Source of the DNA: Roseateles toxinivorans
GTDB taxonomy: Bacteria; Pseudomonadota; Gammaproteobacteria; Burkholderiales; Burkholderiaceae_C
Assembly (NCBI GenBank): GCA_945898095.1
Contig: CAMDHE010000045.1
Span: 1-35,408, forward strand
Length of the DNA stretch: 35,408 nucleotides
Direction: 5' to 3'
Shown: positions 176-34,690 of the stretch, one piece after another
How positions within the stretch are numbered: the first letter of the stretch is position 1
Layout of the letters: the number at the start of each line of letters is the position of its first letter
The notes under the pieces: generated by a model
What the model was told of the DNA's origin: nothing
What the model saw: only the letters and a program-made list of their open reading frames with translations
Databases searched by the model: none
Position numbers and translations under genes: made by a program

Positions 176-1228
176 ATGACGCTTGCACCCACCGAAAAGC
201 AGCCATCGCCGGATGAAACATGGTCGCCGCTCGACTTCGACCGGGAATCATTTCGCGTCTCCACAGTCGAAGGCTCGTTCAAGCGTTTTGCTCGCAACGG
301 GGTGCGCACATTCCACCATGTGGTGGGCGGCAGGGGCATCTCCGACACGGTGCGCTTTGACGACGGTGTACTGCTCACGGTCGTCAATTGCGTACTGCCC
401 CTGATGGCCCGATGGCGCTATGAGAACGATGAGCCGCTGATCATGTTGCGGGCGTCGCTGAGTTGCGAGGTCGCGTTCCGCTATGACGGCATTGCGCCGA
501 TCATTTTCAACCGGCCCGAAGTCACCCTCGCTTGCCAGCCCGCAGGGCAGCACCTGACGGTCGACGTGATCGGCGGAGCCCGGCAGCAGGGCTTGATCGC
601 CCTGTTTCGGGCATCAAGCTTCGCCGCCCGCTACGGGCTGCAGCCCGATGACCTGCCACCGGCGATGCGCGATGCGCTCACCGGCGATCGACCGGTGGGC
701 CGGATCGCCTCGTTCCCGCTGGACCAGCGCATCGCCGGCCTGGTGGCAGATACCATCGACAGCCGGCTCGATGGCGAAATGCGGGTGGTGCAGTACGCCG
801 GGCGCCTGGCCGAGTTGGTGGCCTACACGATCGACGCGATGCAGCACACGCCGACATTGCGCGGTGGAGCACTGCATCTGCGCCGCGATGTCCAGCTGGC
901 CCAGGCCGCGCTCGAACGACTGCAGCATGATTACCGACGACCACCGCTGTTTGCCGAGCTGGCGCACGAGGTCGGGACCAACCAGAACAAGCTCAAGACG
1001 GTGTTCAAGGACGCGTTCGGCCTGACCATGGCCGAGTACTGCCTGGAGCGGCGCATGCGCGAAGCACAGTTGCTGTTGATGGAGGCAACGCTGACCATCG
1101 CACAGGTTGCCGATCGCGTCGGCTACGAACACCAGAGCAGCTTTGCAGCGGCGTTTCGAGGTCACGTCGGCATGTCAGCGCGCGAATATCGGCAGCACCG
1201 CGCACCCTTCCGCCAGACTTTGGAGTAA
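176..1228 (+). CDS. AraC family transcriptional regulator, PchR-like
   Basis: This is a DNA-binding regulator of 350 residues. Residues about 250-340 hold the AraC-type pair of helix-turn-helix motifs: helix set 1 lies in FAELAHEVGTNQNKLKTVF and set 2 in TIAQVADRVGYEHQSSFAAAF, followed by the usual FR-hydrophobic-S-REYR end. The N-terminal 230 residues would form the ligand-sensing part but show no motif I recognise. The TNQNKLK turn resembles PchR-type regulators, which often control TonB-dependent receptors, and a receptor gene follows 212 bp downstream on the same strand. I chose the ATG at 176 because AGGAG lies at 161-165; an in-frame ATG at 101 would add 25 residues without a clear ribosome binding site. 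Control of the downstream operon is inferred from position. I recognise nothing in the 175 bp before the gene. Confidence 0.85.
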   Translation: MTLAPTEKQPSPDETWSPLDFDRESFRVSTVEGSFKRFARNGVRTFHHVVGGRGISDTVRFDDGVLLTVVNCVLPLMARWRYENDEPLIMLRASLSCEVAFRYDGIAPIIFNRPEVTLACQPAGQHLTVDVIGGARQQGLIALFRASSFAARYGLQPDDLPPAMRDALTGDRPVGRIASFPLDQRIAGLVADTIDSRLDGEMRVVQYAGRLAELVAYTIDAMQHTPTLRGGALHLRRDVQLAQAALERLQHDYRRPPLFAELAHEVGTNQNKLKTVFKDAFGLTMAEYCLERRMREAQLLLMEATLTIAQVADRVGYEHQSSFAAAFRGHVGMSAREYRQHRAPFRQTLE

Positions 1229-1440
1229 GCAATCGGCGTTACTTCCAAACCAGATAAGGGTTCACCCGCAGAAAGGAAGCGTGAGGGGCCATAGTCGGTA
1301 CGATCGCCTAAATTTTCGGTGCAAGTGCAAATGCGCTCGGTATTGGGCTTCCGATATCGTTTGACCGTTCGATCTGGTGCCATTTTTTTGGTGCCGCCGA
1401 TCAGTCACTCATGTCAGCCTACTTGAGAAGGAACCGCAAA

Positions 1441-3624
1441 ATGACGACCCGCATGATTTTCAACCTCCATAGTCTCGCGGCCGCTCGGCCCAAGCTTATC
1501 GTCCAGGCGTTGGTGGCTGCAGGGTTGATCTCGGCCCTGCCGGTGAGCGCGCAGCAAACGCCGACGGAAGTTGATACCGTCCTGCCAAAGGTGGTCATCA
1601 CCGCCAACAAGCGCGTCGAAAGCCAGCGCGAAGTCGCGGGTACGGTGTCGGTGTTGCAGGGTAGTGATCTCGAGCGCAGTGGTGCGCGCGACCAGGAAGA
1701 CTTTTTGAAACTGACGCCTGGCGTGCAACTCAACCGCGGTGACCCCAACAGCAGTGGCATCACCATCCGGGGCTTGAGCAGCCAGGCATCACCCGAGAGC
1801 GGCGGTGGACAACAGAACGCGAGCGGCTCGTACCTGGAAGACGTGCCTCTGGCATCGCCCATCGGCAAGGGCATGGTGGCAGACATCCTGCCTTTCGACC
1901 TGGACCGCATCGAGGTGCTGCGCGGGCCGCAGGGCGCTCTGTTCGGTTCGGGGTCGCTTGGGGGCGCTGTGCGCTATCTATTGGCCAATCCAGACCTGAA
2001 ATCTTTCGGTGCAGCGCTGCAGGTCGGGGCCAGCAGCGTGTCAGAAGGCAAGACCGCCGCATCGCTGTACGGCATGGTCAATGCGCCCCTCAGTGACAAG
2101 GCTGCGCTGCGCGTGGTGGTCTATGACCGGACGGCACCGGGCTACATCGACAACAAGGGCACCAAAACAAACGACGCCAACGAGGTGCGCCAGACCGGCG
2201 GCAGAGTGCTGTTCACCGTGAAGCCCTTGCGCGAATTGACGGCCACCGTCGTGGCCAGCACGCAGAAGACCACGCAGGATGACTTCAGCTATGTCTTTGG
2301 TGACCCGAAGAAGTTGGAGCATGACAACCCCTCGCTCGGCCGCGGCACCTCGCAGTTCGACTTCTCCAGCCTCACGGTGGACTACGACCTGGGCAGCATG
2401 ATGTTGACTTCCGTCACCGGTTACTGGAAGACCCAGGCCAACTCCAAAGGGGACGACACAAGGCTGTTTGCCACGCTGGGGCTGCAACTGCCGCTGGTGG
2501 CGCGCGTCGCCGCTGGCAGCAGCGACGCCAAGTCGCAGGAGCTGCGACTCAGCAGCAAGCCCGGTGGCGCGCTCAGCTGGGTGGCCGGCGTGTTCTACCA
2601 GACCAACAAGGGCAGTGGTGCTGCGAAACAAAGCGACGCCTCGGCAGCGTTCGGCGTCGTGGATCTGGTGGACTTGAAGACGACCTCGGAAGGTACCGAG
2701 AAGGCGGCCTTCTTCGACGGTGAATATGGTCTGGGCGGCGGTTGGAGCGCAGGGCTGGGCGGACGTGTCTACAAGACCAGCACCGCTTTCCAGCAGACCG
2801 GCACGATCTTCGGCGGCCCGAGCAACGGGCCCTTGCTGGCCGGCGGCGACAGCGGCAACACACCGAAGGTCAGCGTCAAGTACCGTTTCGGTGACAACCT
2901 GTGGTACGCCCTGGCCTCCAAGGGCTACCGTTATGGCGGTGTGAATGAAGGGCCGCCGCAGACGACCTTCAAGTCCGACAGCCTGTGGAACTACGAGACC
3001 GGGGTTCGTCTGTCACCGGCAGCGGGTGTACAACTCGACCTGACCGCCTTCATGCTGGACTGGACCGACGCGCAGTTCACCTACTTCGAGCAACGCGGCC
3101 AACTGGCCTTCTCGGGCATCGGCAATGTCGGCAAGGCCAGCAGCACCGGCCTGGAAGCTGCCCTGCGCTGGCGCATCAACCCGGCCTTCGACGTGGCAGC
3201 CTCGCTGGCCAGCATCGACGCCAAGACCACCAAGGACGTGAAGACACTGGCGGGCCGCGCACCGGTGACTATCGCTTCCGGCGCACGCCTGCCCGGCACC
3301 GCCAAACTGCAGACTGCCTTGCAGGGCAACTACCGCTTCACGGGTCCGATGGACTCTTCGGGGCGGTTCAACATCACGCACACGCATGTCGGTGAACGGG
3401 TCATCGACCTGACAGCCTTCTACAAGGCACCCGCCTACGACACGCTGGACCTGGGCGTGAACTTCAACAAAGGCAACTGGACCCTGGCGGCGGGCTTGAG
3501 CAACGTGACTGATGAGCGGGGCATCATGAACATCCAGGGCACCCCGGACGGCAGCAAGGTCTTCCAGCAGTACTACCTGCAGCGCCCTCGCACATTGGAT
3601 GTGTCGTTGCGCTACGACTTTTAA
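1441..3624 (+). CDS. TonB-dependent outer-membrane receptor (operon 1)
   Basis: This 727-residue protein is an outer-membrane beta-barrel that imports a ligand using energy passed on by TonB. A signal peptide covers residues 1-37, with a probable cut in VSA-QQT. A TonB-box-like stretch, LPKVVITANK, follows at about 48-57. The plug domain comes next, with the typical IRGLSS and DRIEVLRGPQGALFGSG motifs, and then a long barrel ending in RYDF with the terminal aromatic expected for BamA recognition. I chose the ATG at 1441, preceded by GAGAAGGA, over an in-frame upstream ATG at 1411. It is the first gene of an operon whose later members are a transporter and hydrolases, so the ligand is probably a degradable nutrient rather than only a siderophore. 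That reading is inferred; the ligand cannot be read from the sequence. Confidence 0.93.
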   Translation: MTTRMIFNLHSLAAARPKLIVQALVAAGLISALPVSAQQTPTEVDTVLPKVVITANKRVESQREVAGTVSVLQGSDLERSGARDQEDFLKLTPGVQLNRGDPNSSGITIRGLSSQASPESGGGQQNASGSYLEDVPLASPIGKGMVADILPFDLDRIEVLRGPQGALFGSGSLGGAVRYLLANPDLKSFGAALQVGASSVSEGKTAASLYGMVNAPLSDKAALRVVVYDRTAPGYIDNKGTKTNDANEVRQTGGRVLFTVKPLRELTATVVASTQKTTQDDFSYVFGDPKKLEHDNPSLGRGTSQFDFSSLTVDYDLGSMMLTSVTGYWKTQANSKGDDTRLFATLGLQLPLVARVAAGSSDAKSQELRLSSKPGGALSWVAGVFYQTNKGSGAAKQSDASAAFGVVDLVDLKTTSEGTEKAAFFDGEYGLGGGWSAGLGGRVYKTSTAFQQTGTIFGGPSNGPLLAGGDSGNTPKVSVKYRFGDNLWYALASKGYRYGGVNEGPPQTTFKSDSLWNYETGVRLSPAAGVQLDLTAFMLDWTDAQFTYFEQRGQLAFSGIGNVGKASSTGLEAALRWRINPAFDVAASLASIDAKTTKDVKTLAGRAPVTIASGARLPGTAKLQTALQGNYRFTGPMDSSGRFNITHTHVGERVIDLTAFYKAPAYDTLDLGVNFNKGNWTLAAGLSNVTDERGIMNIQGTPDGSKVFQQYYLQRPRTLDVSLRYDF

Positions 3625-3630
3625 GACTTG

Positions 3631-4941
3631 ATGGACGCGACCGCCACAACGTCTTCACCACAGGTCCCGGCCCCCGACACCGCAGCCAGCTGGCGTGCTC
3701 TGGCGGGCAGCGGTGTACTGGCGATGTTTGGCGTGTCCGCCCTATACGGCTCCACGTTCGGTTTGTTCCTGCTGCCCTTGCAGCAAAGCCTGGGCTGGAG
3801 CCGCGGCGAGATTGCCTTCTCGCTCACTCTGGCCACCTTGTTCACGCCGCTGGTAGCGCCACTGACTGGCTGGGTCATCGACAAGGTGCCGCTGCGTCCG
3901 CTGATTCTGGCGGGGGTGGTGCTGCAGTCGGCCAATTTCGCCGCCTTTTCGATGATGCAGGGCAGCGTGTGGGTGTATTACGGCTTGTGTCTGGCGCTGA
4001 TGGTGACCGCGGCCGGCGCGTCCTTGCTCAGCCTGGCCAAACTGGTGCAAGGCTGGTTCGACCAATCTTTGGGCCGTGCCTTGGGCCTGCTGTTCGCATG
4101 CGGCGGCATCGGTGGCATCCTGCATCCGCTGTGGACGCAGGCCGTCATCAGCCAGTTAGGCTGGCGCCAGGCCTTCATGGTCATGGCGGGGCTGAGTTTG
4201 CTGGCATGTGGCGCGGCGGCGCTTTTGTTGGTGCGCGAACGCGAGCCGGCGGCGCGCCGGGAGCCCTTGGCAGGGCTGGATGCGCGCAAGCCTGTTTCCA
4301 CCGCGGCGGCCGCCAACGGTAAGGGCCCCGATTCGATGGCCGCATTCATGCGCGACGCGATCTGGTGGAAGCTGGCCTTGTTCAACATGCTGTTCGCGCT
4401 GGGTGTGGGTGCCATCTTCATGCATTTCGCTGCGCTGCTGCAGGACCGGGGTGCCACCCCCGGGCAGGCGGCGTTCGCGATGAGTCTGGTCGGCCTGGGT
4501 GGCCTGACCGGCAACCTGCTGGCCGGTTGGCTGGCCGACCGCATGCCGGCCTCGCGCCTGGCGGTGATTGTGATGGCCGTGCCCATGCTGGCCACCTTGA
4601 CGATCTATGCCGGTGGCGGGCTGTGGGTCAGCATCGCGGCGGGCGGCTTGCTGGGACTGTGTTCGGGCGGAGACAACAGCGTCAGCCTGCTACTGGCGCG
4701 CCGCTACTTCAGCGCCGATACCTTTGGACGTGCCAGCGCCACGCAAATGGTGGCCGCGGCCGCGGGTGGCGGCGTGTCGCCATGGCTGGCCGGCTTGGTG
4801 CACGACCGCACTGGCAACTACGACCTGGCCTTGATCATGGCTGCGGCCTGCATGGGTGCCGCGGCCCTAGCTGCCTGGTGGCTGCCCGAGCATCGCGCAG
4901 CCACCAGACCTGATGGCGACAACGTCGCTTTGGGTGCCTGA
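3631..4941 (+). CDS. MFS transporter, monocarboxylate-transporter-like
   Basis: This 436-residue inner-membrane carrier has about twelve hydrophobic segments. The start resembles the OFA/monocarboxylate branch of the major facilitator superfamily: LPLQQSLGWSRGEIAFS near residue 50, and GWFDQSLGRALGLLFACG followed by glycine-rich GGIGG near 140-155. A hydrophilic central loop (about 200-240, rich in R, E and A) separates the two six-helix halves. It starts 6 bp after the receptor stop, and a GTG-started hydrolase follows 3 bp after its own stop, so it is part of operon 1. It probably moves the receptor's ligand, or a product of it, across the inner membrane. The branch suggests a carboxylate-bearing substrate, but this is a weak inference. 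Confidence 0.87.
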   Translation: MDATATTSSPQVPAPDTAASWRALAGSGVLAMFGVSALYGSTFGLFLLPLQQSLGWSRGEIAFSLTLATLFTPLVAPLTGWVIDKVPLRPLILAGVVLQSANFAAFSMMQGSVWVYYGLCLALMVTAAGASLLSLAKLVQGWFDQSLGRALGLLFACGGIGGILHPLWTQAVISQLGWRQAFMVMAGLSLLACGAAALLLVREREPAARREPLAGLDARKPVSTAAAANGKGPDSMAAFMRDAIWWKLALFNMLFALGVGAIFMHFAALLQDRGATPGQAAFAMSLVGLGGLTGNLLAGWLADRMPASRLAVIVMAVPMLATLTIYAGGGLWVSIAAGGLLGLCSGGDNSVSLLLARRYFSADTFGRASATQMVAAAAGGGVSPWLAGLVHDRTGNYDLALIMAAACMGAAALAAWWLPEHRAATRPDGDNVALGA

Positions 4942-4944
4942 ACC

Positions 4945-6114
4945 GTGCAGCGCTGGCACAACGCCCTGCTGGCCCTGCTGAGCCGCGATGCGGCAGGGCT
5001 GTTCATCGCCGCGCTAGTGAGCCTGCTCTTCTGGGGCATGGCGCTGGCGGTACCCACCGCGTTGCGCTGGCCAGTGACCACAATGGGGCTCGTGCTGGGC
5101 GGGTTGCTCGGTTTGGCCTCCATCAAACATCTATGGGTCTTGTCGCGCACACGCCGGGCAACGCCGCCGCCGGGCCGCATGATCGATCTCGGCGGCTACT
5201 GCGTACACCTGCTGGCCGAGGGCGACGCGCGCGATGGTCGCGTGCCGATCGTCTGGTTCGCCGGTGGCCACGCCAGCGGCTTCGCCATCCACCACATGCA
5301 CCGGATATTTCGCGACGAGACACGCTCGATCCTGATCGACCGCCCGGGCACCGGATGGAGCGACACCGGGCCGTTTCCACGCACCACAGCGCGTGAGGCA
5401 GACGAGATGGTGTTGGCGCTGGAACTTGCCGGGGAGACAGGGCCCTTCATCTGGGCCGGTCATTCCTTCGGCGGATTGCTGTGCGCCAACATCGCAAGGC
5501 GCCGACCGGACCTCGTGCATACGCTGGTCCTGCTGGACCCGACACCGCTGGAGACGATCCTCTTCGGCCCGCGTTTTGGCGCCATTCGCGAAATGCAGCG
5601 AGGGGCGGTACTCAGTGGGCTGGCGCATTTGTTCGGCATCGACCTCGCGGTACGTTTGCGAAAGAAGCAGGCCGAGAATCCTGTCTATGCGAAGGTGATG
5701 CAGGCTGTCGATGCCGTGCTGGGCGTGGAAGTTGCAGCCGCACGCGGCGTCGAAGCGCGTGCTGGCGTTTCCTTTGCCGCGGCTTCGATCTATCGCGAGC
5801 TCAGCCCCGAGGGCGCCCTGGCTTGCGCCTGGGATACCTTGGTCTACGACGGCGACCTGGGCGATCTGCCGGTGCTCCTTGTTGCGCCGAAAAATGACAT
5901 CGATGTCGATGCCCTGCCCGAGGTGCAAGGCGTGGCCAAGGGCGACGCGCAGCGCATCGTGCACCGGCTGGCGGCCACACGTGAGCGTTATCTCGCCACC
6001 TCCACCCGGTCGCAGCGCGTGATCGCTCCGGCCGGCACTGGCCACAACTTTGTCTATGAAGTACCCGACTGGCTGGCCGATGTGATGCGCGGCGTGCTGC
6101 AGCGAAAGGACTGA
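4945..6114 (+). CDS. membrane-anchored alpha/beta hydrolase
   Basis: This 389-residue serine hydrolase has two N-terminal hydrophobic helices (about residues 18-40 and 44-66), followed by an Arg-rich stop (SRTRRATPPP). They look like a membrane anchor rather than a cleavable signal. The catalytic domain follows. PIVWFAGGHASG is in the oxyanion position, the nucleophile elbow GHSFGG contains Ser174, and His367 lies in GTGHNF. The acid is probably Asp318 or Asp320 in NDIDVD. The start is GTG at 4945, 3 bp after the transporter stop, and the next gene's ATG lies 3 bp beyond this stop, so the gene sits inside a coupled operon. The substrate is unknown; ester or amide hydrolysis close to the membrane is inferred. 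The active site would face the cytoplasm if the two helices form a hairpin with both ends inside. Confidence 0.85.
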   Translation: MQRWHNALLALLSRDAAGLFIAALVSLLFWGMALAVPTALRWPVTTMGLVLGGLLGLASIKHLWVLSRTRRATPPPGRMIDLGGYCVHLLAEGDARDGRVPIVWFAGGHASGFAIHHMHRIFRDETRSILIDRPGTGWSDTGPFPRTTAREADEMVLALELAGETGPFIWAGHSFGGLLCANIARRRPDLVHTLVLLDPTPLETILFGPRFGAIREMQRGAVLSGLAHLFGIDLAVRLRKKQAENPVYAKVMQAVDAVLGVEVAAARGVEARAGVSFAAASIYRELSPEGALACAWDTLVYDGDLGDLPVLLVAPKNDIDVDALPEVQGVAKGDAQRIVHRLAATRERYLATSTRSQRVIAPAGTGHNFVYEVPDWLADVMRGVLQRKD

Positions 6115-6117
6115 GTG

Positions 6118-7845
6118 ATGGCCGCGACCGAAATCAACACCCCTGCCTTGCTGGCCGACCTGGCCGAGCGCTACTGGCGGTTCGAGTGCCACGAAATTCC
6201 CCTGTCGGCTGCGCTGGCCGGGCAAGCGACCAACGATGCGGTGCTGTTCCGCGAGTCGGCAGCCGATCATGCGCGGCGCGACTTTGGCGCCGGTGCATTG
6301 CTGGCTGAAGTCGACGCGCTCGATGCAGCGGGCCTCGATGCGCAGGGACGGGCCACACATGCCCTGCTGCGCCGGGAACTGATGGGGCTGCGCGAGCAGT
6401 ACGCCGTCGACGCGCACCTGCGGCCCTGGCTGTTTCCGGCCGGTCCCGACTTCACGGCGGTGTTTTGGGCCAATGCCAGCGGCGTGGGTGACGCGGCAGC
6501 CGCCGCGCAATATGTTGATCGACTGGCTTCACTGCCGGCCTACCTTGGCGATGTGCAGGACAACATCGAGGCCGGCCTCGCACGCGGCTACCGCTACCCA
6601 AGGGTGGTACTGCAAAGCGCCATTGGCAATACCCGCGGCACGCTCGCCGCTGCCCCCGAGGCATCGCCCTGGATGGGCGCATTCAAGCGTTCGGCGGTGG
6701 CGGCGCAGCCGGCCGTGAAGGCGCAGGCCGATCGCGCCCTGGTTATCGTGCGCGAGCAACTGGTTCCGGCCTTGCAGCGCTGGGCCGATTTCATGTCGGG
6801 CCTGATCGAGCGTGGCTCGCGCGAGACCCTCAGCTGTATCGACGGCCCGGCCGGCGCCGACTATTACCGCACCTGGGTGCGCAACTTCACCAGCAGCGAG
6901 CTCGACCCTGAGGCCGTGTATGCACTGGGTCTGACCGAAGTGGCAAGGATCGGGAACGAGATCGAGGCGGTGGCGGTCGATGCAGGCTTCGCCGGCAACG
7001 TCAGCGGCTACCGCGCATTTCTGGCCAACGCGCCGGAATTTATCGCTGCCTCCAGTCAGGCGCTGCGCGAGAGCATCGAAGTGCTGTGCAAGCGCATTGA
7101 CCGCCGCATTCCCGACTTCTTCAGCCGCATTCCGCGCATCACCTACGGTGTCGACAGCATGTCCGAGGCGGTGTCGGCGCGCATGCCACCGGCTTATGCA
7201 CAGCCAAGCCCCGCCGACGGCTCCTCTGCGGGCGTCTTCTGGATCAGCGGTCTGCCGTCCAAGGCACCGAGTTATCTGCACCCGGCGCTGGTGGTACACG
7301 AGGCCTGGCCCGGCCACTTGATGCACATGGCCTTACTGAACGAGCAGCAGGACCTGCCTGCCTTCCGCCGCTATGGCGCGGTCAAGTACACCGCGTGCGT
7401 CGAGGGCTGGGCGCTGTATTGCGAAACGCTGGGCATCGAGATGGGCATCTACACCACACCGCATCAGCAATATGGCCGGCTCGAGATGGAACTGTGGCGG
7501 GCGGTGCGCCTGGTGGTGGACACCGGCATCCACTGGAAGGGCTGGTCAAGGCAGCAGGCCATCGATTACATGGCCTCGTTGCTGACTTTGTCGCGCGACA
7601 CGATCGAAGGCGAGGTCGATCGATACGCTGCCTTGCCGGCCCAGGCCTTGGCCTACCAGATCGGCAACCTGAAGCTGCGCGAGTTGCGCCAGCGTGCCGA
7701 AACGCAGTTGGGTGGCCGCTTCAGCCATCGCGCCTTCCACGCAGCGGTGATGACAGCCGGCGCGGTGACGCTGCCGGTGCTTGACGATCTGGTCAGCGAC
7801 TGGCTCCATCACGAACTGCGAGGAGCGGCCAAACATGCCGCTTGA
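6118..7845 (+). CDS. DUF885 family metallopeptidase-like protein (first copy)
   Basis: This 575-residue protein belongs to DUF885, a family of presumed zinc-dependent hydrolases. The hallmark HE-x-x-PGH motif is present as HEAWPGH, with His394, Glu395 and His400, followed by the conserved helix containing EGWALYCE near 430 and the YMASLLTLSRD and PAQALAYQIGNLKL segments near the C terminus, all typical of the family. No signal peptide is visible, so it is probably cytoplasmic. The start is ATG at 6118; GTG at 6115 is an alternative one codon earlier. The next gene overlaps the end of this one by 11 bp, indicating translational coupling. A second, clearly diverged DUF885 gene lies at 16213. 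The substrate is unknown; peptide-bond hydrolysis is inferred from the family and the neighbouring peptidases. Confidence 0.9.
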   Translation: MAATEINTPALLADLAERYWRFECHEIPLSAALAGQATNDAVLFRESAADHARRDFGAGALLAEVDALDAAGLDAQGRATHALLRRELMGLREQYAVDAHLRPWLFPAGPDFTAVFWANASGVGDAAAAAQYVDRLASLPAYLGDVQDNIEAGLARGYRYPRVVLQSAIGNTRGTLAAAPEASPWMGAFKRSAVAAQPAVKAQADRALVIVREQLVPALQRWADFMSGLIERGSRETLSCIDGPAGADYYRTWVRNFTSSELDPEAVYALGLTEVARIGNEIEAVAVDAGFAGNVSGYRAFLANAPEFIAASSQALRESIEVLCKRIDRRIPDFFSRIPRITYGVDSMSEAVSARMPPAYAQPSPADGSSAGVFWISGLPSKAPSYLHPALVVHEAWPGHLMHMALLNEQQDLPAFRRYGAVKYTACVEGWALYCETLGIEMGIYTTPHQQYGRLEMELWRAVRLVVDTGIHWKGWSRQQAIDYMASLLTLSRDTIEGEVDRYAALPAQALAYQIGNLKLRELRQRAETQLGGRFSHRAFHAAVMTAGAVTLPVLDDLVSDWLHHELRGAAKHAA

Positions 7846-24328: not shown

Positions 24329-24358
24329 AAGGTGCAGCGCGCGAGTGAAGCCTGAACG

Positions 24359-27413: not shown

Positions 27414-27439
27414 TGGGTTTTCTCCTTTGCCATGACTGG

Positions 27440-27486
27440 TTTATAGCCGGGAGTGCGCCGGGCGGCCATGTCAAGAAGACGACATG
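27440..27486 (-). promoter_or_regulatory. dyad operator and promoter candidate upstream of the cysteine hydrolase
   Basis: Plus strand 27467-27486 is CATGTC-AAGAAGAC-GACATG, a perfect 6-bp inverted repeat around an 8-bp spacer. On the minus strand it supplies TTGACA at 27474-27469, and TATAAA lies 23 bp further on at 27445-27440. A 23-bp spacing is too long for an unaided sigma-70 promoter, so an activator bound to the dyad is the natural reading. Related copies lie at 24387-24406 and 11865-11884. The other 180 bp up to the soxB relic show nothing I recognise. Confidence 0.5.
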
Positions 27487-27668
27487 CGTGATCGCCGCGG
27501 CCCATGCACAATGCATCAACAACGCACCACCTGTTTCGCCTATCGTCGCGATGCTTTGTCATGCGTATTGCTCGGCTTGCAACCCGTTAGCCGCCCTAAA
27601 ACTAAGTGTGACCCGCCTAAAGCGGTACCAGCGCGAACACATATGCTGCCACGTTGCACCGCACGCAC

Positions 27669-28108
27669 ATGAACTCACGCACCCGCTACTCTGCCTGGAA
27701 CCTCTTGGCCTCGGCCCTGCACGGCCAGGCCGACTGGGCGCCGGCGTGGCGCGATGCCGAGCCCAAGGCCCGCTACGACGTGGTCATCATTGGCGGCGGC
27801 GGCCACGGCCTGGCCACGGCCTACTACCTGGCGAAGAACCACGGCATCACGAATGTGGCGGTGCTCGAAGCCGGCTGGATCGGCGGCGGCAACATCGGCC
27901 GCAACACCACCATCGTGCGCTCGAACTACCTTTACCCCGAGAGTGCCCGTCTGTACGACTTTTCGGTGCGGCAGTACAAGCAGTTGGCGCAGGAGCTCAA
28001 CTTCAACATCATGTTCAGCCAGCGCGGGGTGATGATGCTCGCGCATTCGCGCCACGACCTGGATTCGCAGTCGCGCTGGGCCAATGCGATGCTGTCAACG
28101 GCGTCGAT
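27669..28108 (+). pseudogene. soxB: truncated and frameshifted sarcosine oxidase beta subunit (copy 2)
   Basis: The first 140 or so residues of SoxB are present: the leader [20 protein letters not shown], the FAD-binding [19 protein letters not shown], then [27 protein letters not shown] and [11 protein letters not shown]. Intact SoxB has about 410 residues and, with SoxA, D and G, oxidises sarcosine to glycine. After RWANAM the expected LNGVDA reading continues in another frame (VNGVDA at about 28091-28108), which points to a small deletion, and then homology ends. The open frame runs to a TAG at 28176-28178. No other sox gene is nearby. The reading as a remnant is secure, and no function is expected. 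Confidence 0.87.
27960..28090 (+). repeat. direct-repeat partner of 11491-11621
   Basis: This stretch of the soxB relic aligns without gaps to 11491-11621, with about 9 mismatches counted by eye (about 93% identity). Both copies end in the same GCCAATGCGAT, after which they diverge. They flank about 16.3 kb that holds operon 2, the acyl-CoA operon and the asparaginase region. Homologous recombination between them could delete or circularise the interval. Confidence 0.8.
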
Positions 28109-28132: not shown

Positions 28133-29503
28133 TCAGCCTGCCTCGACGGCGCGCGCGGCGCGCGCGGTCTGCACATAGCCACGACCGCAAAGCAGCATCA
28201 GTCCGGCGGCGATCATCAAGGCGGTCGTGGATGTGGCCGTCATCGCCAACATCAGGCCATCGGGGCGCGGCTTCAGCGCATCGGAGATGGCGCCCACGAC
28301 TGCAGGGCTGAGCGAACCGAGGACCATGTTGAACATGATGATCAGCGAGATCAGCCGTGCACGCAGTGGCGCCGGGGTCATCTCTTGCAGGGCTGTCGGA
28401 AAGACCATCGTGCCGGCCATCAGGAAGGTGTGGTGCAAAGCCATCAGCGTGAACAGCTCCACCGGTGTTCTCGCCAAGAAAAGCGTTGCCGCAAAGACAC
28501 CGCTGGCTGCCGCGGCGAAGGCCAGAACCCGCACGGGCAACAACGGGCCCAGCCGCGGTGCCAGCCACTTCATGCCCACATTGGCGATCAACAGCCCCAC
28601 GACCGATGACGCGAACGTGGCGATGCCCATGGCATTGCCCAGGTCCAGCGCCGTCACGCCCATCTGCCGCATGGCCACTACGGGGATGAAAGCGCCGGTG
28701 GCGCCAAAGCCGAACACCAGCAGGCCCACCGACAACATGAAGGTGGCAAACGAGAAACGCTGGCTGCGCAAGAACGGCCAGACAGACGGCTGTTTGGCTT
28801 GCACCGCCGTCGCGACACCCGGGGGCGTTCGGGCCGGGTTGCGCTTATTGAGGGGCAACAACAGGATCATCGGCACGAACACGATGCCTGGCAGGGCCGT
28901 TGCAAAGAATGCCAGTCGCCAGGTCGGCAAGGCTTGCAGCAAGTCGGGCAGCAGCGGTCGCCAGAGATCAATGGCGTGAATCATCCACCCGCACATTGCG
29001 ATGACCAGGCCGACCACCAAGCGCCCGGTGACGATGAACAAGGAATTGGCCAACTGCCGCTGGCCGCCGCGGAACAGTTCGGGAATCAGGGCATAGGCGA
29101 TGGGCAGCAAGCCGGCCTCGGCCGCACCCACCAAGGCGCTGGTGACAAACAGTTCATTGAAGTCACGCGCCAGGCCGCAGGCGCCAACGGCCAGGCTCCA
29201 GGTAGCGATGCAGCCGGCCAATACCGTGCGGCGGTCAAAGCGGTCTGACAACCACGCGATGGGGTAGCCGACCACGGCTGCAAACAAGGCCACACTCACC
29301 CCCTGCAGCAGGCCGAACTGCAGGTCAGACAGCCCCAGCGCCTGGCGCAAGGGCTCGGCCTGCAGGCCAAAGATCTGCCGGTCCATGTAGGTGTACAGGC
29401 CCAAGGCCACCAGCACCAGCAGGCTGACCCATGCGGACATCGGTGCCCGCTCAGATTCATCGCTGGCGGGTGGCGCCACGACGGCCTCAGTTTGAACGGC
29501 CAT
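28133..29503 (-). CDS. MFS transporter, spinster-like (third)
   Basis: This 456-residue inner-membrane carrier has about twelve hydrophobic segments. [22 protein letters not shown] near 30-50 and [19 protein letters not shown] near 75-93 fit the spinster-type branch. The second half carries [23 protein letters not shown] at 29503 is preceded by TGGAGC and overlaps the end of the M32 gene by 17 bp; GTG at 29524 is an alternative. It is the last gene of the dgcN operon and ends 25 bp from the soxB relic. It probably carries a product or substrate of the upstream peptidase, esterase and D-glutamate enzymes; the direction of transport is unknown. Confidence 0.87.
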
Positions 29504-30986
29504 GGCGTTGCTCCAGTTGTGCACGTAGTGCGTTGTCGGACAGCGGTTCGCCAGTGGCTTGCCGCATCATGGCGTCCAGATCGTGGCGCGCGCCTTGCTG
29601 CCAGATGCGAGGCGACAGCCAGTCGCCGATGGCCTTGCAGTCGCCAAGCGCCACCTGGGCTTGCAGGTCAGGCACGTCACGCCGCAGGGCAGCGAAGCAC
29701 TGCGCCGCCGCCATGGCGCCCAGAAGGTAAGCCGGGAAATAGCCGAACATACCCTGCACCCAGTGCGGGTCTTGCATGGGGCCCTGACTGAACAGCGCTT
29801 GCGGGCCCACGCCCAGTAGCCGCTGCATGCGCTCGTTCCACCAGGCGGGCACGTCGTCAACCTCGATCTCGCCATCAACCAGTGCCTGCTCGATCTCGAC
29901 GCGAAGGATGACATGCAGCGGATAAGTCAACTCATCGGCCGCGACGCGGATACGTCCAGGCCGGACGCGGCGCAGCAGCCGCGTCAGGTTGTCCGGCTCG
30001 AACGCCGGCTGATGACCGAAGGCCTGGTGCAGTAGCGGCGAAAGGGCCTGGCAAAAAGCTGGCTCAGGCGCCAGCTGGCGCTCGAAGATCAGCGCCTGGC
30101 CTTCGTGCAGGGCGGCCGAATGCGGCCCGGCCAGCGGCTGACCCAGCCAGGCGCGCGGCAGGTTCTGCTGGTAGCGCGCGTGGCCGGTCTCGTGCATGGT
30201 GCCAATCAGTGCGGGCACAAAATTACTCTCGTCGAAACGTGTGGCCAACCTCACGTCTTCGGGCACGCCGCCGGTGAAAGGGTGCTGGGTGGTGTCCAGT
30301 CGCCCGGCATTGAAGTCGAAGCCCAGCATCCCCATCACCTGTTCGCACAGGCGCTGCTGTGCTGCGGCCGGGAACGGGCCAACCGGTTCGAGCAGTGGCG
30401 CAGCACCCGCCTGCGCGGCCAGCGCCTGCTCAAGCAGCGGCGGCAGCCACCCTTGCACGCGCGCGAACAGCGGTGCCACCCGGGCCATGCGCAAGCCCGG
30501 CTCCGAGCGTTCAAGCAGCGCGTCCATGGGCTGCAGACTCAACGCGTCGCCAAGTCGCATGGCTGATTCGCGCACCACCGCCACCAGCGGCGCCCATGCG
30601 GGGGCGAAGCGAGCCCAGTCATTGTCCTGGCGCGCCACGCTCCAAGCTTGCATGGCGACGCCGATGGCAAGTTCGCGGCGCTCGGCCAAGGCCTCGGGAA
30701 TGCTCGCCTCGATGCGGCGCGCCTGCTCCATGCGTGCGAAATTGAGAGCGGTGTCGCCCTGCAGTGGTTCTTGCCTAGCCGCCTCGAATTGCCCGGCCAA
30801 GACGTGACCCGCTTGAAGCTGCTTGATCAATACCGTGAGCGCCGCCTGGGCTGCCGCGCGCGCGGACGCGCCTGCGGGCGGCATGTGGGTCAGTCGGTCC
30901 CAGGTGGCGACGGCCTGCAGGTGCTCCAGATCGTGGATGCGCCGGTGATGGACCACCAAAGCGTCATAGGCAGGCGTCAGGCTCAT
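29487..30986 (-). CDS. M32 family metallocarboxypeptidase (Taq-type)
   Basis: This 499-residue protein has the usual length of M32 carboxypeptidases. The zinc motif HETGH (His265, Glu266, His269) lies in IGTMHETGHARYQQ, and the M32-specific blocks DVRLATRFDESNF, HEGQALIFE and RVRPGRIRVAADELTYPLHV are all present in order. The family removes C-terminal amino acids from short peptides in the cytoplasm. It starts at ATG 30986, 38 bp downstream of the esterase stop in the same operon. With DgcN/DgcA upstream it may liberate free amino acids, perhaps including D-glutamate, but M32 enzymes are known to act on L-residues, so that link is speculative. Confidence 0.93.
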   Translation of the reverse strand: MSLTPAYDALVVHHRRIHDLEHLQAVATWDRLTHMPPAGASARAAAQAALTVLIKQLQAGHVLAGQFEAARQEPLQGDTALNFARMEQARRIEASIPEALAERRELAIGVAMQAWSVARQDNDWARFAPAWAPLVAVVRESAMRLGDALSLQPMDALLERSEPGLRMARVAPLFARVQGWLPPLLEQALAAQAGAAPLLEPVGPFPAAAQQRLCEQVMGMLGFDFNAGRLDTTQHPFTGGVPEDVRLATRFDESNFVPALIGTMHETGHARYQQNLPRAWLGQPLAGPHSAALHEGQALIFERQLAPEPAFCQALSPLLHQAFGHQPAFEPDNLTRLLRRVRPGRIRVAADELTYPLHVILRVEIEQALVDGEIEVDDVPAWWNERMQRLLGVGPQALFSQGPMQDPHWVQGMFGYFPAYLLGAMAAAQCFAALRRDVPDLQAQVALGDCKAIGDWLSPRIWQQGARHDLDAMMRQATGEPLSDNALRAQLEQRHGRSN

Positions 30987-31024: not shown

Positions 31025-31918
31025 CTAGCGCCGAAACGCGAATCGAACGCCGCGCGCGATACCTGCGGGCGGCACCATATTGTGGTCGTCGCCCTCGTGA
31101 ACCACGGTTTCCACATGCAAGCCAGGGGATGCGAGCGCGGCGAGCCTGGCCCCGAGCTCGACCGTGTTGGGCACCATACGGCACTCTTCGGTCATATCGC
31201 GGAAGTCTTGCTCGCCAGCGGGCAGGCCGGGTACAAAGCGAAACGTGGACTCCAGAGCGCCCACCGTGATCAATGCCCGGGCCTTGACCTCCCCAGCCCG
31301 CACGCGATCGCTGAATGCGGCTTCGTGCGCCAGCACCGCTCGGTCGTTGTACCAAATGGATGGGCTGATGGCCACGAACTGCTGGAACATCGCGGTGTGC
31401 CGGAACAGCGCATGCAAAGTGGTGAGTCCGCCCAAGGAATGTCCCATCAGCACTTGCTCCTGGCGGTTGATGGCCACCATCGCCTCGACACGCGGCTTGA
31501 CCTCTTCCTCGATAACGCGAAAGTAGTTGTCCATGCCGCCCCAGCCTTCGGACGGCCGAGGCATCTTGGCGATGAATCCTTTGTTCAGTCTCTCTTCCGA
31601 GATGGGCGTGGTCAGGTCGATCATGCGCAGGTCAAGCGCGGTGCTGACGCTGTCGGTGGGGTAGCCAATGCCGACCACGACAGGGTCGATGACATCGGGC
31701 CAGCAAGCCTGGATGCGGGCGGTGTCGACTGCGATGCCGAAGTGCAGGTTGCCGTCGATCAGGTAGACCACCGCATGCCCCTCGGGCGGTGTCGGCCGCC
31801 GCGTGGGAATGGAGACGTAGAGCCGGTAGGCACGGCCGTTGACCTTGGATGTGAAGTCTATGACTCGGGCGTTCAGCGCCATCTCGGAGCTGGGTGCGGA
31901 TGTCGAGGCTGTTTCCAT
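31025..31918 (-). CDS. Fes/IroE-type alpha/beta esterase
   Basis: This 297-residue hydrolase is of the enterochelin-esterase-like family. VVYLIDGNLHFGIAVD near 50-65 is the family's first strand, PVVVGIGYPTD follows, and the nucleophile elbow GHSLGG contains Ser161. The late His is His279 in GDDHNMV; the acid is probably in the TVGALES region. The long insert RPSEGWGGMDNYFRVIEEEVKP is typical of this family. ATG at 31918 is chosen over the in-frame ATG at 31999, which would overlap the dgcA gene by 38 bp. A GGAAG ribosome binding site is seen. Family members hydrolyse cyclic or linear esters and some peptides. Its place in the dgcN operon suggests a depsipeptide or peptide ester, but this is inference. 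Confidence 0.87.
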   Translation of the reverse strand: METASTSAPSSEMALNARVIDFTSKVNGRAYRLYVSIPTRRPTPPEGHAVVYLIDGNLHFGIAVDTARIQACWPDVIDPVVVGIGYPTDSVSTALDLRMIDLTTPISEERLNKGFIAKMPRPSEGWGGMDNYFRVIEEEVKPRVEAMVAINRQEQVLMGHSLGGLTTLHALFRHTAMFQQFVAISPSIWYNDRAVLAHEAAFSDRVRAGEVKARALITVGALESTFRFVPGLPAGEQDFRDMTEECRMVPNTVELGARLAALASPGLHVETVVHEGDDHNMVPPAGIARGVRFAFRR

Positions 31919-31961: not shown

Positions 31962-32948
31962 TCAGCCCCAGAGGGCCGGTTGTGGGGGGTACACCACACC
32001 CTGGCTGAAGGTCATGGCGTGCGTGCGGTCGCCCACTTGCAGCAAGGGTCCGTCGAGATCGGCCCAGCGGGCCAGCTGAGCCACCAGAAAGGCCGGTGCC
32101 ATGCCCAGCGAGGTGCCGCACATATTGCCCACCATCAGGTCAAATCCGAGTGCAAGAGCCTCGTTCGCCAGCCCCAGCGCCTCGGTAAAACCACCGCACT
32201 TGTCGAGCTTGATATTCACGACCTGGTAACGCCCTTGCAGGTCGGACAACGACGCCCGGTCAATGCAGGACTCATCGGCGCAAATCGGGATCGGGGCGTG
32301 CAGGCCCGACAACGCCTCGTCCGCGCCCCTCGGCAAAGGCTGCTCGATGAGTTCGACACCTGAGGCGAGTAGATCGGCCATCAGATCGGTCAGCAACGAG
32401 AACGTCCAGGATTGATTGGCATCGATCAGCAGGCGGGCGGCAGGCAGCTCTTCGCGCACGATGCGCACAAGCTCGAGATGGCGCTGCGCGTCAACCTTCA
32501 GCTTGATCAGCGGCAGACCACGGGCTGCGCGCGCCCGGCGGCGCACTTCTTCGGGGCTTCCCAGTCCGATGGTGAACGCTGTGACCACGGGCTTGGGCTC
32601 CTGCAGGCCGGCCAAAGCCCACACAGGCAGACCGCGCTGCTTGGCACGCAAATCCCACAGCGCGCAGTCGAGTGCGTTACGGGCACCGCCGGCAGGCAGC
32701 AAGTTCAGAAGGTCTTTACCGTTGAGGTCGTCATGCAGTTGCGCCGCCACGGCATCGATCTGCGCCAACATCAATGCGGGGGTCTCACCGTCGTAGTCGA
32801 CTCCCGCCGCTTCGGCTCGACCCACGTGGCCGTCGCCGTCGGTCAAGGCGACGGCGATCATGGGCAGGTCGTGCATCACCACGCGGGCGATCTCGAAGGG
32901 CTCGCGCAGCGGCCAGCGCTCAAGCAGGACCGCGACGCGCAGCGTCAT
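31962..32948 (-). CDS. dgcA: N-acetyl-D-glutamate racemase / dipeptide epimerase (enolase superfamily)
   Basis: This 328-residue enolase-superfamily enzyme has the catalytic KLK pair with Lys151 and the metal ligands Asp176 (DAN), Glu202 (IEQPL) and Asp225 (ADES). A second catalytic lysine, Lys247, lies in NIKLDKCGG. These positions equal those I recall for E. coli L-Ala-D/L-Glu epimerase YcjG. The C-terminal GNMCGTSLGM block is typical of this group. Family members adjacent to DUF1611 have been reported as DgcA, which racemises N-acetyl-D-glutamate in D-glutamate catabolism. The ATG shares ATGA with the dgcN stop, so the pair is coupled. A dipeptide epimerase (L-Ala-D-Glu) is the main alternative; the DgcN neighbour favours DgcA. 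Confidence 0.85.
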   Translation of the reverse strand: MTLRVAVLLERWPLREPFEIARVVMHDLPMIAVALTDGDGHVGRAEAAGVDYDGETPALMLAQIDAVAAQLHDDLNGKDLLNLLPAGGARNALDCALWDLRAKQRGLPVWALAGLQEPKPVVTAFTIGLGSPEEVRRRARAARGLPLIKLKVDAQRHLELVRIVREELPAARLLIDANQSWTFSLLTDLMADLLASGVELIEQPLPRGADEALSGLHAPIPICADESCIDRASLSDLQGRYQVVNIKLDKCGGFTEALGLANEALALGFDLMVGNMCGTSLGMAPAFLVAQLARWADLDGPLLQVGDRTHAMTFSQGVVYPPQPALWG

Positions 32949-33949
32949 GCCAGCAAGGCCCTTGCAATCTCGTCCACGCCCCCGCGCATCGGGTCACACA
33001 CCGGCAGGTCCAGTTCGTCTGCGACCGCTTGGCGATAGCGGGTCCAGGCCGTGTCGTCGAGCGTGGACGAGTTGATGGCCACACCCACGCAACGTACCGA
33101 TGGATTCGTCAACTGCGCGGCCTCGACGTAGCGGCGGATCGCCTCCTTCAAGCTCGGCAGCGGAATGTGCGGATAGTCCTCGATGGTGCTGCGCGAAGGA
33201 TCGTGACACAACACGATCGCATCGGGCTGCGAGCCGTGCAACAGACCCAAGGTCACGCCAGCATAGGCAGGGTGGAAGAGTGCGCCCTGGCCCTCGATCA
33301 CGTCCCAATGGTCGGCGGTGTTGTCAGGCGACAGCAACTCGGCCGCGCCTGAAATGAAATCGGCCACAACGGCGTCGATGGCAATGCCTTCGCCGGCAAT
33401 CATGATGCCGGTCTGGCCGGTAGCCCGGAAGCTGGCATCCGCCCCAAGGGCCTGGAGCGCTCTTGTCAAAGCCAACGCGGTGTACTTCTTGCCCAGCGCA
33501 CAGTCGGTGCCGACGGTCAACACACGTCGACCGCTTCGCTTGCGCCCCGTACCTGGGGCCAAATACCGGTCCGCGTGGCGCACATTGACCAAGCGTGCGC
33601 CGCTGCGTGCAGCGGCGCTGACCAAGGCCGGACAGGTTTCCAGCCGCGTGTGCAAACCGCTGACGATGTCCAGGCCGGCGTCCAAGGCCTGCACCAATGT
33701 GGGTATCCATGACTCTGGGAGTTGCCCGCCGACGGGCGCCACACCAATGAGCAAAGAGCCCGCACCCCTTGCCGCCGCATCCGCGGGCGTGACGACCTGC
33801 AGACCCAGGCTCACTGTGGCTTGCGGCAAGGCCCATTCACCGATCACATCGTCAGGACACCAATCGCGCAATCCAAATCCAGTCTTGGCGTCTGACTTCA
33901 GCGTGACGCCAGCTAGAAAGAGGAGATAGGGTTTTCGCAGATTTCGCAT
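32945..33949 (-). CDS. dgcN: D-glutamate N-acetyltransferase-like DUF1611 protein
   Basis: This 334-residue DUF1611 protein starts with KPYLLFLAGVTL...AKTGFGLRDW, the family's N-terminal signature. It has a P-loop-like GTDCALGKK at 147-155, with FRATGQTGIMIAG after it and VIEGQGALFHP near 218-228. The family includes DgcN, reported to acetylate D-glutamate as the first step of a D-glutamate catabolic pathway with DgcA. ATG at 33949 has no Shine-Dalgarno sequence; an extended -10 lies only a few bases upstream (see operator entry), so the message may be leaderless. It is first in a five-gene minus-strand operon ending with an MFS carrier. I am sure of the family and fairly sure of the D-glutamate role, given the adjacent dgcA. 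Confidence 0.87.
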   Translation of the reverse strand: MRNLRKPYLLFLAGVTLKSDAKTGFGLRDWCPDDVIGEWALPQATVSLGLQVVTPADAAARGAGSLLIGVAPVGGQLPESWIPTLVQALDAGLDIVSGLHTRLETCPALVSAAARSGARLVNVRHADRYLAPGTGRKRSGRRVLTVGTDCALGKKYTALALTRALQALGADASFRATGQTGIMIAGEGIAIDAVVADFISGAAELLSPDNTADHWDVIEGQGALFHPAYAGVTLGLLHGSQPDAIVLCHDPSRSTIEDYPHIPLPSLKEAIRRYVEAAQLTNPSVRCVGVAINSSTLDDTAWTRYRQAVADELDLPVCDPMRGGVDEIARALLA

Positions 33950-33971: not shown

Positions 33972-34024
33972 TCCATTTTAGTAAAGCCTGCAGGCAATGG
34001 CTCGCCGTAACGGCGCCAATGGTT

Positions 34025-34690
34025 CTACAGAGGTGGTGTATTGGCGCTAACCACCACGGCTTCAGCCTCACCAACGTTACGGAAGCGATGGGGCAGGCGA
34101 CTCGAAAACAGATAGCCATCACCGGGACCCAACACCTTCGCGATGCCGCCGACAGTGACTTCGACCTGCCCTTGAATGACCACACCCCCTTCGTCACCTT
34201 GGTGGCTGTAGGGCTGCGCGGCCGTTTCGGCACCCGGCGCATATCGCTCCAGAAGAATCTGCAGCGGGCGGCCCTTGAGATTGTGACCAACCTGCTGCAA
34301 GGAGATGCCGCCTGCCCCTACCTCGAGCAGTTCTTCGCGCGGGAAGAATACCTGCGTCTCGGTTCCCGGATCCAGAGAGAAAAACTCGGACAGCGTCATT
34401 GGCAGGCTGTCCAGGATCTTGCGCAACGAACCGACTGATGGCGAGATGGTTTCCTTCTCGATGCACCCGACTGTGCCGTGATTGAGGCCCGCGCGCCGAG
34501 CCAGTTCGCGCTGTGACAGGCCGTGCAACTCACGAACATAGCGAAGCCGCACGCCAACGCCGGCGCCCGGCTCATCATTGACCATTGCTGCATCAACACT
34601 CGCGGGCGCGCCTTTATCGACAACGTGGACCGTTTTGGCCAATGCCGATCTCTTGCGCGGCTTGGTGGCTTGGGTTTTCTCGGTCTTCAT
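34025..34690 (-). CDS. XRE-family regulator with C-terminal cupin domain
   Basis: This 221-residue protein has an N-terminal helix-turn-helix of the XRE type at about 46-103 (LRYVRELHGLSQRELARRAGL, then GTVGCIEKETISPSVGSLRKIL). A small cupin domain follows at about 145-218 (HQGDEGGVVIQGQVEVTVGG, GPGDGYLFSSRLPHRF). This is the PuuR-like layout, in which the cupin binds an amino acid or small metabolite. It lies on the same strand as dgcN, 75 bp upstream of it. Its own promoter region holds an 18-bp site related to the dgcN palindrome, which suggests autoregulation and control of the D-glutamate operon. The Lys/Arg-rich first 20 residues are probably disordered. The ligand is inferred to be D-glutamate or a derivative. 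Confidence 0.9.
   Translation of the reverse strand: MKTEKTQATKPRKRSALAKTVHVVDKGAPASVDAAMVNDEPGAGVGVRLRYVRELHGLSQRELARRAGLNHGTVGCIEKETISPSVGSLRKILDSLPMTLSEFFSLDPGTETQVFFPREELLEVGAGGISLQQVGHNLKGRPLQILLERYAPGAETAAQPYSHQGDEGGVVIQGQVEVTVGGIAKVLGPGDGYLFSSRLPHRFRNVGEAEAVVVSANTPPL

Follow-up and report, generated by a model that had tools for sequence, protein, structure and literature searches.

Two conserved gene modules of a Roseateles toxinivorans genome and their possible role in microcystin catabolism

Gene organization of the window

The window, a stretch of 35,408 nucleotides, is contig 45 of the 209 contigs of a 4.7-Mb, 97% complete genome assigned to Roseateles toxinivorans (G000, the window genome); below, the name R. 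toxinivorans refers to strain DSM 16998 (G210). The window carries two sets of genes for receptors, transporters and hydrolases, module A (g01-g08) and module D (g22-g28), and between them lies a 16-kb block (g09-g20) flanked by fragments of the sarcosine oxidase gene soxB (Table 1). Judged by their relatives in other genomes, modules A and D look like two satellite operons, and not like a single new island; the system that they would belong to seems to be a form of microcystin catabolism so far unrecognised in bacteria other than sphingomonads.

Table 1. Features of the window, with positions, strands and the evidence for each assignment
Feature	Position	Strand	Evidence
g01 AraC-type regulator, module A	101..1228	+	PF12833 1.8e-21; orthologues 52-75%, position conserved
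g02 TonB-dependent receptor, module A	1411..3624	+	Plug 9.9e-19; orthologues 56-88%
g03 MFS transporter, module A	3628..4941	+	PF07690 2.8e-36
g04 alpha/beta hydrolase, N-terminal hydrophobic segments, module A	4945..6114	+	PF12697 1.1e-11; GHSFG; hydropathy
g05 DUF885, HExxPGH metallopeptidase-like, module A	6115..7845	+	PF05960 1.2e-127
g06 alpha/beta hydrolase, module A (start picked by eye)	7835..8596	+	PF12697 4e-9; orthologues 59-93% in A loci
g07 M3 oligopeptidase, HEFGH, module A (start picked by eye)	8593..10680	+	PF01432 7.2e-85
g08 iodotyrosine-deiodinase-like flavoprotein, module A	10697..11419	+	5ko7 E 2.9e-67
soxB fragment 1 (codons 100-144), left edge of block	11488..11622	+	tblastn 80%, 7e-20
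16-kb block g09-g20 between soxB fragments	11623..27640	n/a	family searches; soxB scars
Block gene order: g09 TonB receptor, g10 S9, g11 DUF885, g12 SRPBCC, g13 LuxR, g14 CocE			
Block gene order, continued: g15 S12, g16 acyl-CoA ligase, g17 MaoC, g18 isoaspartyl peptidase, g19 MFS, g20 biuret-hydrolase-like amidase			
soxB fragment 2 (codons 7-146), right edge of block	27678..28097	+	tblastn 84%, 2e-73; DAO domain piece
g22 MFS transporter, module D	28133..29524	-	PF07690 3.2e-30; conserved in relatives
g23 M32 carboxypeptidase, HETGH, module D	29487..30986	-	PF02074 4.3e-129
g24 Fes/PF00756-type esterase, module D (start picked by eye)	31025..31918	-	PF00756 6e-12
g25 DgcA, N-acetyl-D-Glu racemase family, module D	31962..32948	-	NF042940 408.6 bits, cut-off 400
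g26 DgcN family, module D	32945..33949	-	NF041892 436.7 bits, cut-off 480
g27 HTH-cupin regulator, PuuR-like, module D	34025..34690	-	PF01381, PF07883; conserved beside DgcN
g28 S12 beta-lactamase-fold hydrolase, module D, truncated by contig end	34800..35408	+	PF00144 1.2e-33
MFS, major facilitator superfamily; HTH, helix-turn-helix.

A preliminary description, made from the sequence without database searches, had taken nearly the whole window as one island for the use of a peptide-like compound. Family searches recovered most of the genes that it named, namely two TonB receptors (g02 and g09), three MFS transporters (g03, g19 and g22), two DUF885 proteins (g05 and g11), the M3 (g07), M32 (g23), S9 (g10) and isoaspartyl (g18) peptidases, CocE (g14), the acyl-CoA ligase (g16) and MaoC (g17). 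Its two beta-lactamase-fold hydrolases correspond to g15 and g28, the latter lying beyond the part that it covered. The DgcN/DgcA pair was recovered with DgcA above and DgcN below the respective NCBIfam cut-off, and the Fes-type esterase as a weak PF00756 match at g24. Pfam gave three regulators (AraC g01, LuxR/GerE g13 and the PuuR-like g27) instead of the four described. The statement that the enzymes have no signal peptide roughly held in a hydropathy scan alone, except that hydrophobic segments near the N-terminus of g04 give it the look of a membrane-anchored protein. Newly recognized were g08, g20, the SRPBCC protein g12, the alpha/beta hydrolases g04 and g06, and the two soxB pieces.

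In an alignment of 28 DUF885 sequences, H395, E396, P399, G400, H401 and E430 of g05 were invariant, and HExxPGH followed by a glutamate suggests a metallopeptidase-like signature. The closest solved relative of g28 was the D-amino acid amidase 2dns (3.4e-16). g08 matched 5ko7 with 230 bits across 198 residues, and its Glu, Tyr and Lys positions aligned with those of 5ko7 and 4ttb. We take 5ko7 to be the bacterial iodotyrosine deiodinase from Haliscomenobacter hydrossis, and these three residues to be the ones that bind the zwitterion of the substrate. In the block, g10 is of the S9/DPPIV type, g13 belongs to LuxR/GerE, g14 to CocE/S15 and g17 to PF01575, and g20 is an isochorismatase-fold amidase that reached 248 bits with the biuret amidohydrolase model (cut-off 370).

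Three other assignments were considered. g10 was rejected as a lasso-peptide isopeptidase, since the NCBIfam lasso_peptidase model gave 23.6 bits against a cut-off of 400 and its closest solved relatives were dipeptidyl peptidases IV. Siderophore uptake was rejected because both receptors fell under the TonB-siderophor cut-off (110.5 and 152.5 against 223.5). As for cyanophycin use, no cyanophycinase family was found among the window genes, and g18 belongs to the inserted block.

Conservation of modules A and D

A pattern-based, non-exhaustive search with g05 of one genome per species (84,980 species) yielded 45 loci. Module A, scored as present when at least four of g01-g08 were found at 50% identity or more, occurred in 16 of them; the diverged relatives G213-G217 were kept out of this count. 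The A-bearing relatives carry the labels Rubrivivax, Ideonella, Roseateles, Pelomonas, Rhodoferax, Rhodocyclaceae, Burkholderiales, or simply beta- or Proteobacteria, which by themselves would place the window genome probably among the Burkholderiales. Its nearest relative was WB8_3_330 (82-97% protein identity in five A genes). Among 200 genomes of the order, relatives of g05 at 1e-60 were found in 15, the window genome included, and orthologue-level g05 in the window genome and G189 (73%) only.

Module D, scored by DgcN at 73% identity or more, was present in seven of the 16 A-bearing genomes, including the window genome. A adjoins D in G200, G202 and G203. In R. toxinivorans, module A, soxBDAG and module D form one row of about 28 kb. 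The two modules are on different contigs in G218, and their relative placement in G201 is not determinable; they are thus within 28 kb of each other in four of the five relatives where the distance can be told.

The comparison also extends the picture beyond the window. An M19 dipeptidase gene (family taken from one representative) lies beside the AraC gene or just upstream of the DUF885 gene in many A loci, and, judging from L035, L038, L043 and L044, its expected place is just beyond the left end of the window. A TonB receptor gene follows g28 in L109, L115, L118 and L120, and the window is therefore probably cut just before another receptor.

Several A loci have further genes. A VanA-like Rieske oxygenase gene, absent from the window, lies between the M3 gene and the g08 orthologue in L036, L037, L043 and L113. 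A beta-eliminating lyase gene, presumably threonine-aldolase-like, is near module A in L041 and L044. A gamma-glutamyltransferase gene is beside or near the DUF885 gene in L054, L055 and L061, accompanied in L054 and L061 by sox, PurU and FolD. G481 has part of module A on a 5-kb contig. In the diverged relative Sphingomonas colocasiae (G217), eleven DgcN-family genes were found (loci L088, L093, L097 and L100-L107), some with DgcA within loci of about 4 kb.

Sarcosine oxidase genes and the inserted block

soxB was detected at 1e-100 in 13 of the 16 A-bearing genomes, and in 10 of these 13 it lies on the contig of module A in varied arrangements. G201 has one copy beside D and another beside a partial second A, G200 carries soxB on a 6.3-kb contig, and in G211 it is beside a DUF885 paralogue. 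In a relative, soxB scored above the cut-off of its model and soxA reached 1085.7 (cut-off 1164). Whole-genome searches at 1e-100 gave no soxB match in G208, G209 and the window genome.

In the window, soxB is broken into two fragments, one shortly after g08 and the other right before g22. Both carry a 133-bp direct repeat, 93% identical, that brackets g09-g20. In relatives, soxB follows g08 (L041 and L043) or adjoins the g22 orthologue (R. toxinivorans). The simplest history is therefore that the ancestral order was A-sox-D and that the 16-kb block replaced most of sox. It is possible that the scars are an assembly error, though the repeat copies are not identical, with differences at 7% of their sites.

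In G200, G202, G203 and G210, no such block separates A from D. Furthermore, g11 had no match at 1e-60 in the 200 order genomes except its own, and on these grounds the block was rejected as part of a conserved A/D unit. g14 matched in four of the 200 genomes, its own included, and the loci of about 4-5 kb taken around those CocE matches held no A or D orthologue. The clustering on which the preliminary description relied thus holds in part: A and D recur in order elsewhere, whereas g09-g20 were not seen between or beside them in the relatives examined. Likewise, the neighbourhood analysis that it had proposed for its two operons of a DUF885 and a TonB receptor gene showed the g02/g05 operon to be conserved (module A) and the g09/g11 block not to be.

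Families of the block (CocE, S9, S12 and ligase) recur at 27-41% near MlrC-family genes in several genomes, CocE-type genes (27-30%) in seven of 32 loci. In addition, contig 22 of the window genome holds, within 46 kb, relatives of CocE (58%), S9 (29%), S12, DgcA (45%), MlrC, the ligase (38%) and MaoC (40%). From this recurrence, the block may serve related peptides. The contig 22 cluster (L159 and L156) comprises an M81 gene, an S9-like gene, a ligase-MaoC pair, two Fes-like esterases, DgcA, two MFS transporters, two CocE genes and a receptor. Contig 188 (L155) has a second M19-DUF885-hydrolase set (DUF885 49%). After it come a DAO gene and the first part of an M81 gene, the remainder of which may be on contig 22.

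A diverged mlr-type locus in R. toxinivorans

R. toxinivorans DSM 16998 is presumably strain 2C20. Strain 2C20, obtained from DSMZ, degrades microcystins, anabaenopeptins, cyclosporin A and other peptides according to excerpts of PMC8068134, and an excerpt of PMC5127115 has it typed as mlr-negative by PCR with specific primers. The R. toxinivorans genome encodes an MlrA homologue (37% over 314 residues, E ~1e-60). Five residues, E172, E173, H205, H260 and N264, which we take to be the catalytic residues of MlrA, were kept in the aligned complete homologues of G200, G201, G202 and R. toxinivorans. The best sites for the primers MF and MR (printed in PMC6563193) had 6 and 8 mismatches in the R. 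toxinivorans gene, compared with 2 and 1 in Sphingopyxis genome G673.

The MlrA homologue is part of a locus in the first 38 kb of contig C16 (L167 and L220), where about 23 kb extend from an MlrC orthologue to a DAO oxidase gene. In a tree of 32 M81 proteins, from which nine short pieces had been dropped beforehand, this MlrC (50%) and the MlrC of contig 64 of the window genome formed a clade with authentic MlrC (100/100). The genes from MlrC to DAO encode a receptor, an extracytoplasmic function (ECF) sigma factor, Opp proteins, a thiolase, a CoA-transferase and a second MlrC-family protein, and then an enoyl-CoA hydratase (ECH), MaoC, a short-chain dehydrogenase/reductase (SDR), an acyl-CoA ligase, a class III aminotransferase, the MlrA homologue and an S58 peptidase. 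On the opposite side of MlrC are genes for a binding protein and for a member of the C26 gamma-glutamyl hydrolase family. Relatives of many of these genes were found near mlr in G673: thiolase (67%), S58 (63%), DAO (55%), aminotransferase (64%), SDR (73%), ECH (41%), acyl-CoA ligase (50%) and C26 (47%). The C16 gene set would fit microcystin chemically. Relatives of the R. toxinivorans receptor at 64% or more were found in five of 399 genomes of its family, itself included (two candidates scored per genome).

No MlrB or MlrD orthologue was shown in the mapped R. toxinivorans loci, where the MlrD mapping keeps the best query per place. G211 contig 159 (L176) has an MlrD relative (47% over 375/426), with genes for a receptor, an S12 hydrolase and an M81 protein next to it. 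In the excerpted open-licence PMC literature, we found neither mlr genes reported for R. toxinivorans nor a role in microcystin degradation reported for sarcosine oxidase.

MlrA was sought in 80 genomes: the 16 A-bearing genomes, five diverged relatives, five further genomes from the family and genus searches for R. toxinivorans, 52 controls and two source genomes. A homologue (37-38%, ~1e-60) was found in four of the A-bearing genomes (G200, G201, G202 and R. toxinivorans) and in none of the controls (exact test, p 0.002). All four carry module D, so that the homologue occurs in 4/7 genomes with A and D against 0/9 with A but not D (exact test, p 0.019). None of the five diverged relatives had a match at ~1e-60 (G217 had a weak one, 1.9e-9), nor did the five further genomes; G481, G220, G221, G439 and G547, which are outside the 52 controls, gave no match.

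Parts of the C16 locus were also found in the window genome. Contig 64 has, in the same order as R. toxinivorans, the binding protein (83% over 501 residues), C26 (74%), MlrC (81%), the receptor (73%), the sigma factor (68%), OppD (70%) and OppF (81%), and contig 206 has the end of OppF (73%), the thiolase (93%) and the second MlrC-family gene (M81b, 82%). Apart from MlrA, which is taken up below, the other C16-locus genes were not found on the window-genome contigs examined. The window genome has nine MlrC-family places (two maybe halves of one gene), the highest number among the 200 order genomes, where the next has six; R. toxinivorans has seven, one a short fragment. Several of these places have receptor, MFS, S12 and DgcA genes clustered around them. 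A cluster of TonB receptor, MFS, S12 and M81 genes recurs in the window genome and R. toxinivorans (L158, L163, L165, L166/L149 and L122), with DgcA in four of the five and DgcN in one, a pattern suggesting that D-Glu peptides are frequent substrates of M81 enzymes. The likeness of g15 and g28 to MlrB (34-36% over ~135 residues) is no more than that of the S12 family.

Relatives of module A in the mlr region of Sphingopyxis

The MlrC family (PF07364) was sought in 80 Sphingopyxis genomes and matched in 10, two of which, G673 and G637, carry mlrA. The order in G673 is mlrB-mlrD-mlrA-mlrC (names assigned by order, family and length), in agreement with PMC12474180. MlrA of G637 is identical to that of G673, with the same mapped neighbours in mirror order.

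Directly beside mlr in G673 are MFS, acyl-CoA ligase and TonB receptor genes. Within about 30 kb are two DUF885 genes (35-44% to g11), soxA (43%), soxB (59%) and, in a row, relatives of g04 (39%), g07 (42%) and g08 (59%). No relative of g04, g07 or g08 was found at the cut-off in 32 loci, mostly around MlrC-family genes, and the trio was seen only in the mlr flanks. The preliminary description had called to mind no known pathway with the gene set of the window; much of the same cast is present here.

Sphingopyxis sp. USTB-05 degrades microcystin and nodularin according to an excerpt of PMC9144602. In strains C-1, B-9 and THN1, mlr lies on a genomic island that, according to an excerpt of PMC6563193, is probably confined to degraders of the mlr type and is expected to carry further pathway genes. 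We infer that the mapped Sphingopyxis region is this published island.

Discussion

On balance, we favor the view that modules A and D are accessory operons of a dispersed system that imports and breaks down microcystin- and nodularin-type cyanobacterial peptides. The substrate, every reaction and the order of the steps in the following scheme are what we infer from gene families and neighbourhoods. TonB receptors (g02 and the one expected past g28) would bring the peptide or its linear fragments across the outer membrane, and MFS or Opp carriers would pass them to the cytoplasm. In relatives, a membrane protease of the MlrA type could open the ring, MlrC and the S58 peptidase could free Adda, and the C26 gamma-glutamyl hydrolase could cut the iso-linked Glu bond, all encoded elsewhere in the genome. 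Adda would then be processed by the transaminase, CoA ligase and beta-oxidation. The peptidases of A and D (DUF885, M3 and M32), with the M19 dipeptidase normally beside A, would trim the remainder, DgcN/DgcA would convert D-Glu to L-Glu, and sarcosine oxidase would remove the N-methyl group from the N-methyl-dehydroamino acid, perhaps after its reduction. For A and D, the earlier proposal of a nonribosomal-type peptide with D-Glu finds support in their conserved neighbourhood, the sarcosine-oxidase linkage and the relatives beside mlrABCD in Sphingopyxis.

A number of observations weigh against this view. Twelve of the 16 A genomes have no MlrA and nine have no close DgcN. The MlrA homologues are 94-97% identical to that of R. 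toxinivorans, so the counts are not independent events, and G673 and G637, with their identical MlrA, are close to one observation. The Sphingopyxis mlr region, as far as it was mapped, showed no Dgc genes. MlrC-family genes occur in 53 of the 200 order genomes, the window genome included, and the family alone proves nothing. The phenotype of R. toxinivorans does not single out microcystin, because many peptides are degraded (excerpt of PMC8068134). The family of g08 would point to halotyrosines, and thus to cyanopeptolin-like substrates, or else to another role. In the window genome itself, sox is broken and MlrA gave no match at E 1e-8 in a whole-genome search. Its smallest contig is 3,060 bases, and the missing locus genes were therefore possibly lost in binning; either the genome is incomplete or, lacking MlrA and sox, the organism may feed on peptides that are already linear fragments.

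Part of these points would be explained if A and D served other cyanobacterial or nonribosomal peptides, such as cyanopeptolins, anabaenopeptins and lipopeptides, with N-methyl groups, D-residues and halogenated tyrosines, and the mlr-type locus were a mere co-resident. g08 resembles a halotyrosine dehalogenase, sarcosine oxidase suits any N-methyl amino acid, most A genomes are devoid of MlrA, and R. toxinivorans degrades anabaenopeptins and cyclosporin A too (excerpt of PMC8068134). However, mlrABCD in Sphingopyxis has relatives of sox and of A genes no farther than about 30 kb away, the island described in other strains is held likely unique to microcystin degraders (excerpt of PMC6563193), and MlrA is confined to A genomes with D. 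This alternative is possible but, in our judgment, doubtful.

General oligopeptide nutrition, with ordinary peptidases and receptors clustered for no dedicated substrate, would agree with the commonness of each family by itself and with the recurrence of receptor/MFS/peptidase clusters in these genomes. The gene set is, however, fixed in 16 loci, rare in the order (g05 in 15 of 200 genomes) and linked to sox and DgcN/DgcA, which makes this unlikely. Scavenging of gamma-D-Glu and D-Ala peptides from peptidoglycan is considerably less probable. g25 also matched the L-Ala-D/L-Glu epimerase model (253 bits, cut-off 343), and DD-peptidases appear below the D-amino acid amidase among the solved relatives of g28, but a linkage to sarcosine oxidase has no obvious part to play in the catabolism of muropeptides, the family searches brought up none of the classical muropeptide enzymes among the A and D genes, and relatives of A and sox are found beside mlrABCD. 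Finally, one 35-kb island for one compound is scarcely tenable: all genes are together in the window, and the contig 22 cast and the CocE-type genes near MlrC-family genes recall them, but the isoaspartyl peptidase, CocE, S9, ligase and second DUF885 genes all sit in the soxB-flanked block, which does not separate A from D in G200, G202, G203 and G210 and whose g11 had no other match at 1e-60 in the 200 order genomes.

Compared with the sphingomonad mlr system (Sphingopyxis sp. USTB-05, C-1 and m6), the window genome likewise has an MlrC orthologue and a related receptor, C26 and thiolase, and relatives of g04, g07, g08, DUF885 and sox are near mlr there. On the other hand, A and D here are apart from the mlr-type genes, MlrA was not detected in the window genome, and the part of the Sphingopyxis region that was mapped showed no D-Glu genes. 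Blastomonas fulva T2 is, by an excerpt of PMC9505733, also a microcystin degrader with PCR failure and an MlrA homologue (~38-42%), but has a compact mlrBDAC-type cluster, whereas the R. toxinivorans locus is spread and includes Opp, S58, aminotransferase and DAO genes. The DgcN/DgcA pair is adjacent and matched by both NCBIfam models, as in D-glutamate catabolism, yet it lies here beside S12 hydrolase, M32 and esterase genes, and its DgcN is under the equivalog cut-off. Unlike known soxBDAG sarcosine oxidase, sox in the relatives is tied to peptide uptake, and it is broken in the window. g08 shares the Glu/Tyr/Lys positions of 5ko7 but is in a peptide operon with no iodinated substrate evident.

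A more specific proposal, which we regard as rather unlikely, is that "mlr-negative" microcystin degradation in this group of bacteria is largely a primer artefact, that they have a diverged mlr-type island with A, sox and D as satellites by which all the building blocks of the peptide are used, and that g08 reduces N-methyldehydroalanine to N-methylalanine, which is demethylated by sarcosine oxidase. If true, the reduction would be a new reaction for the deiodinase family.

How bacteria in which no mlr genes are detected remove microcystin is presented as an open problem in excerpts of PMC5127115 and PMC8068134, and the genes acting after MlrC, above all on Adda, as not worked out in an excerpt of PMC6563193. 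R. toxinivorans, a standard strain for the mlr-negative problem, appears to carry a diverged mlr-type locus together with A, sox and D. Candidate genes can now be named for ring opening, the release and catabolism of Adda, D-Glu use and N-demethylation, and these provide markers that standard mlrA primers would miss. The "mlr-negative" problem thereby becomes directly testable.

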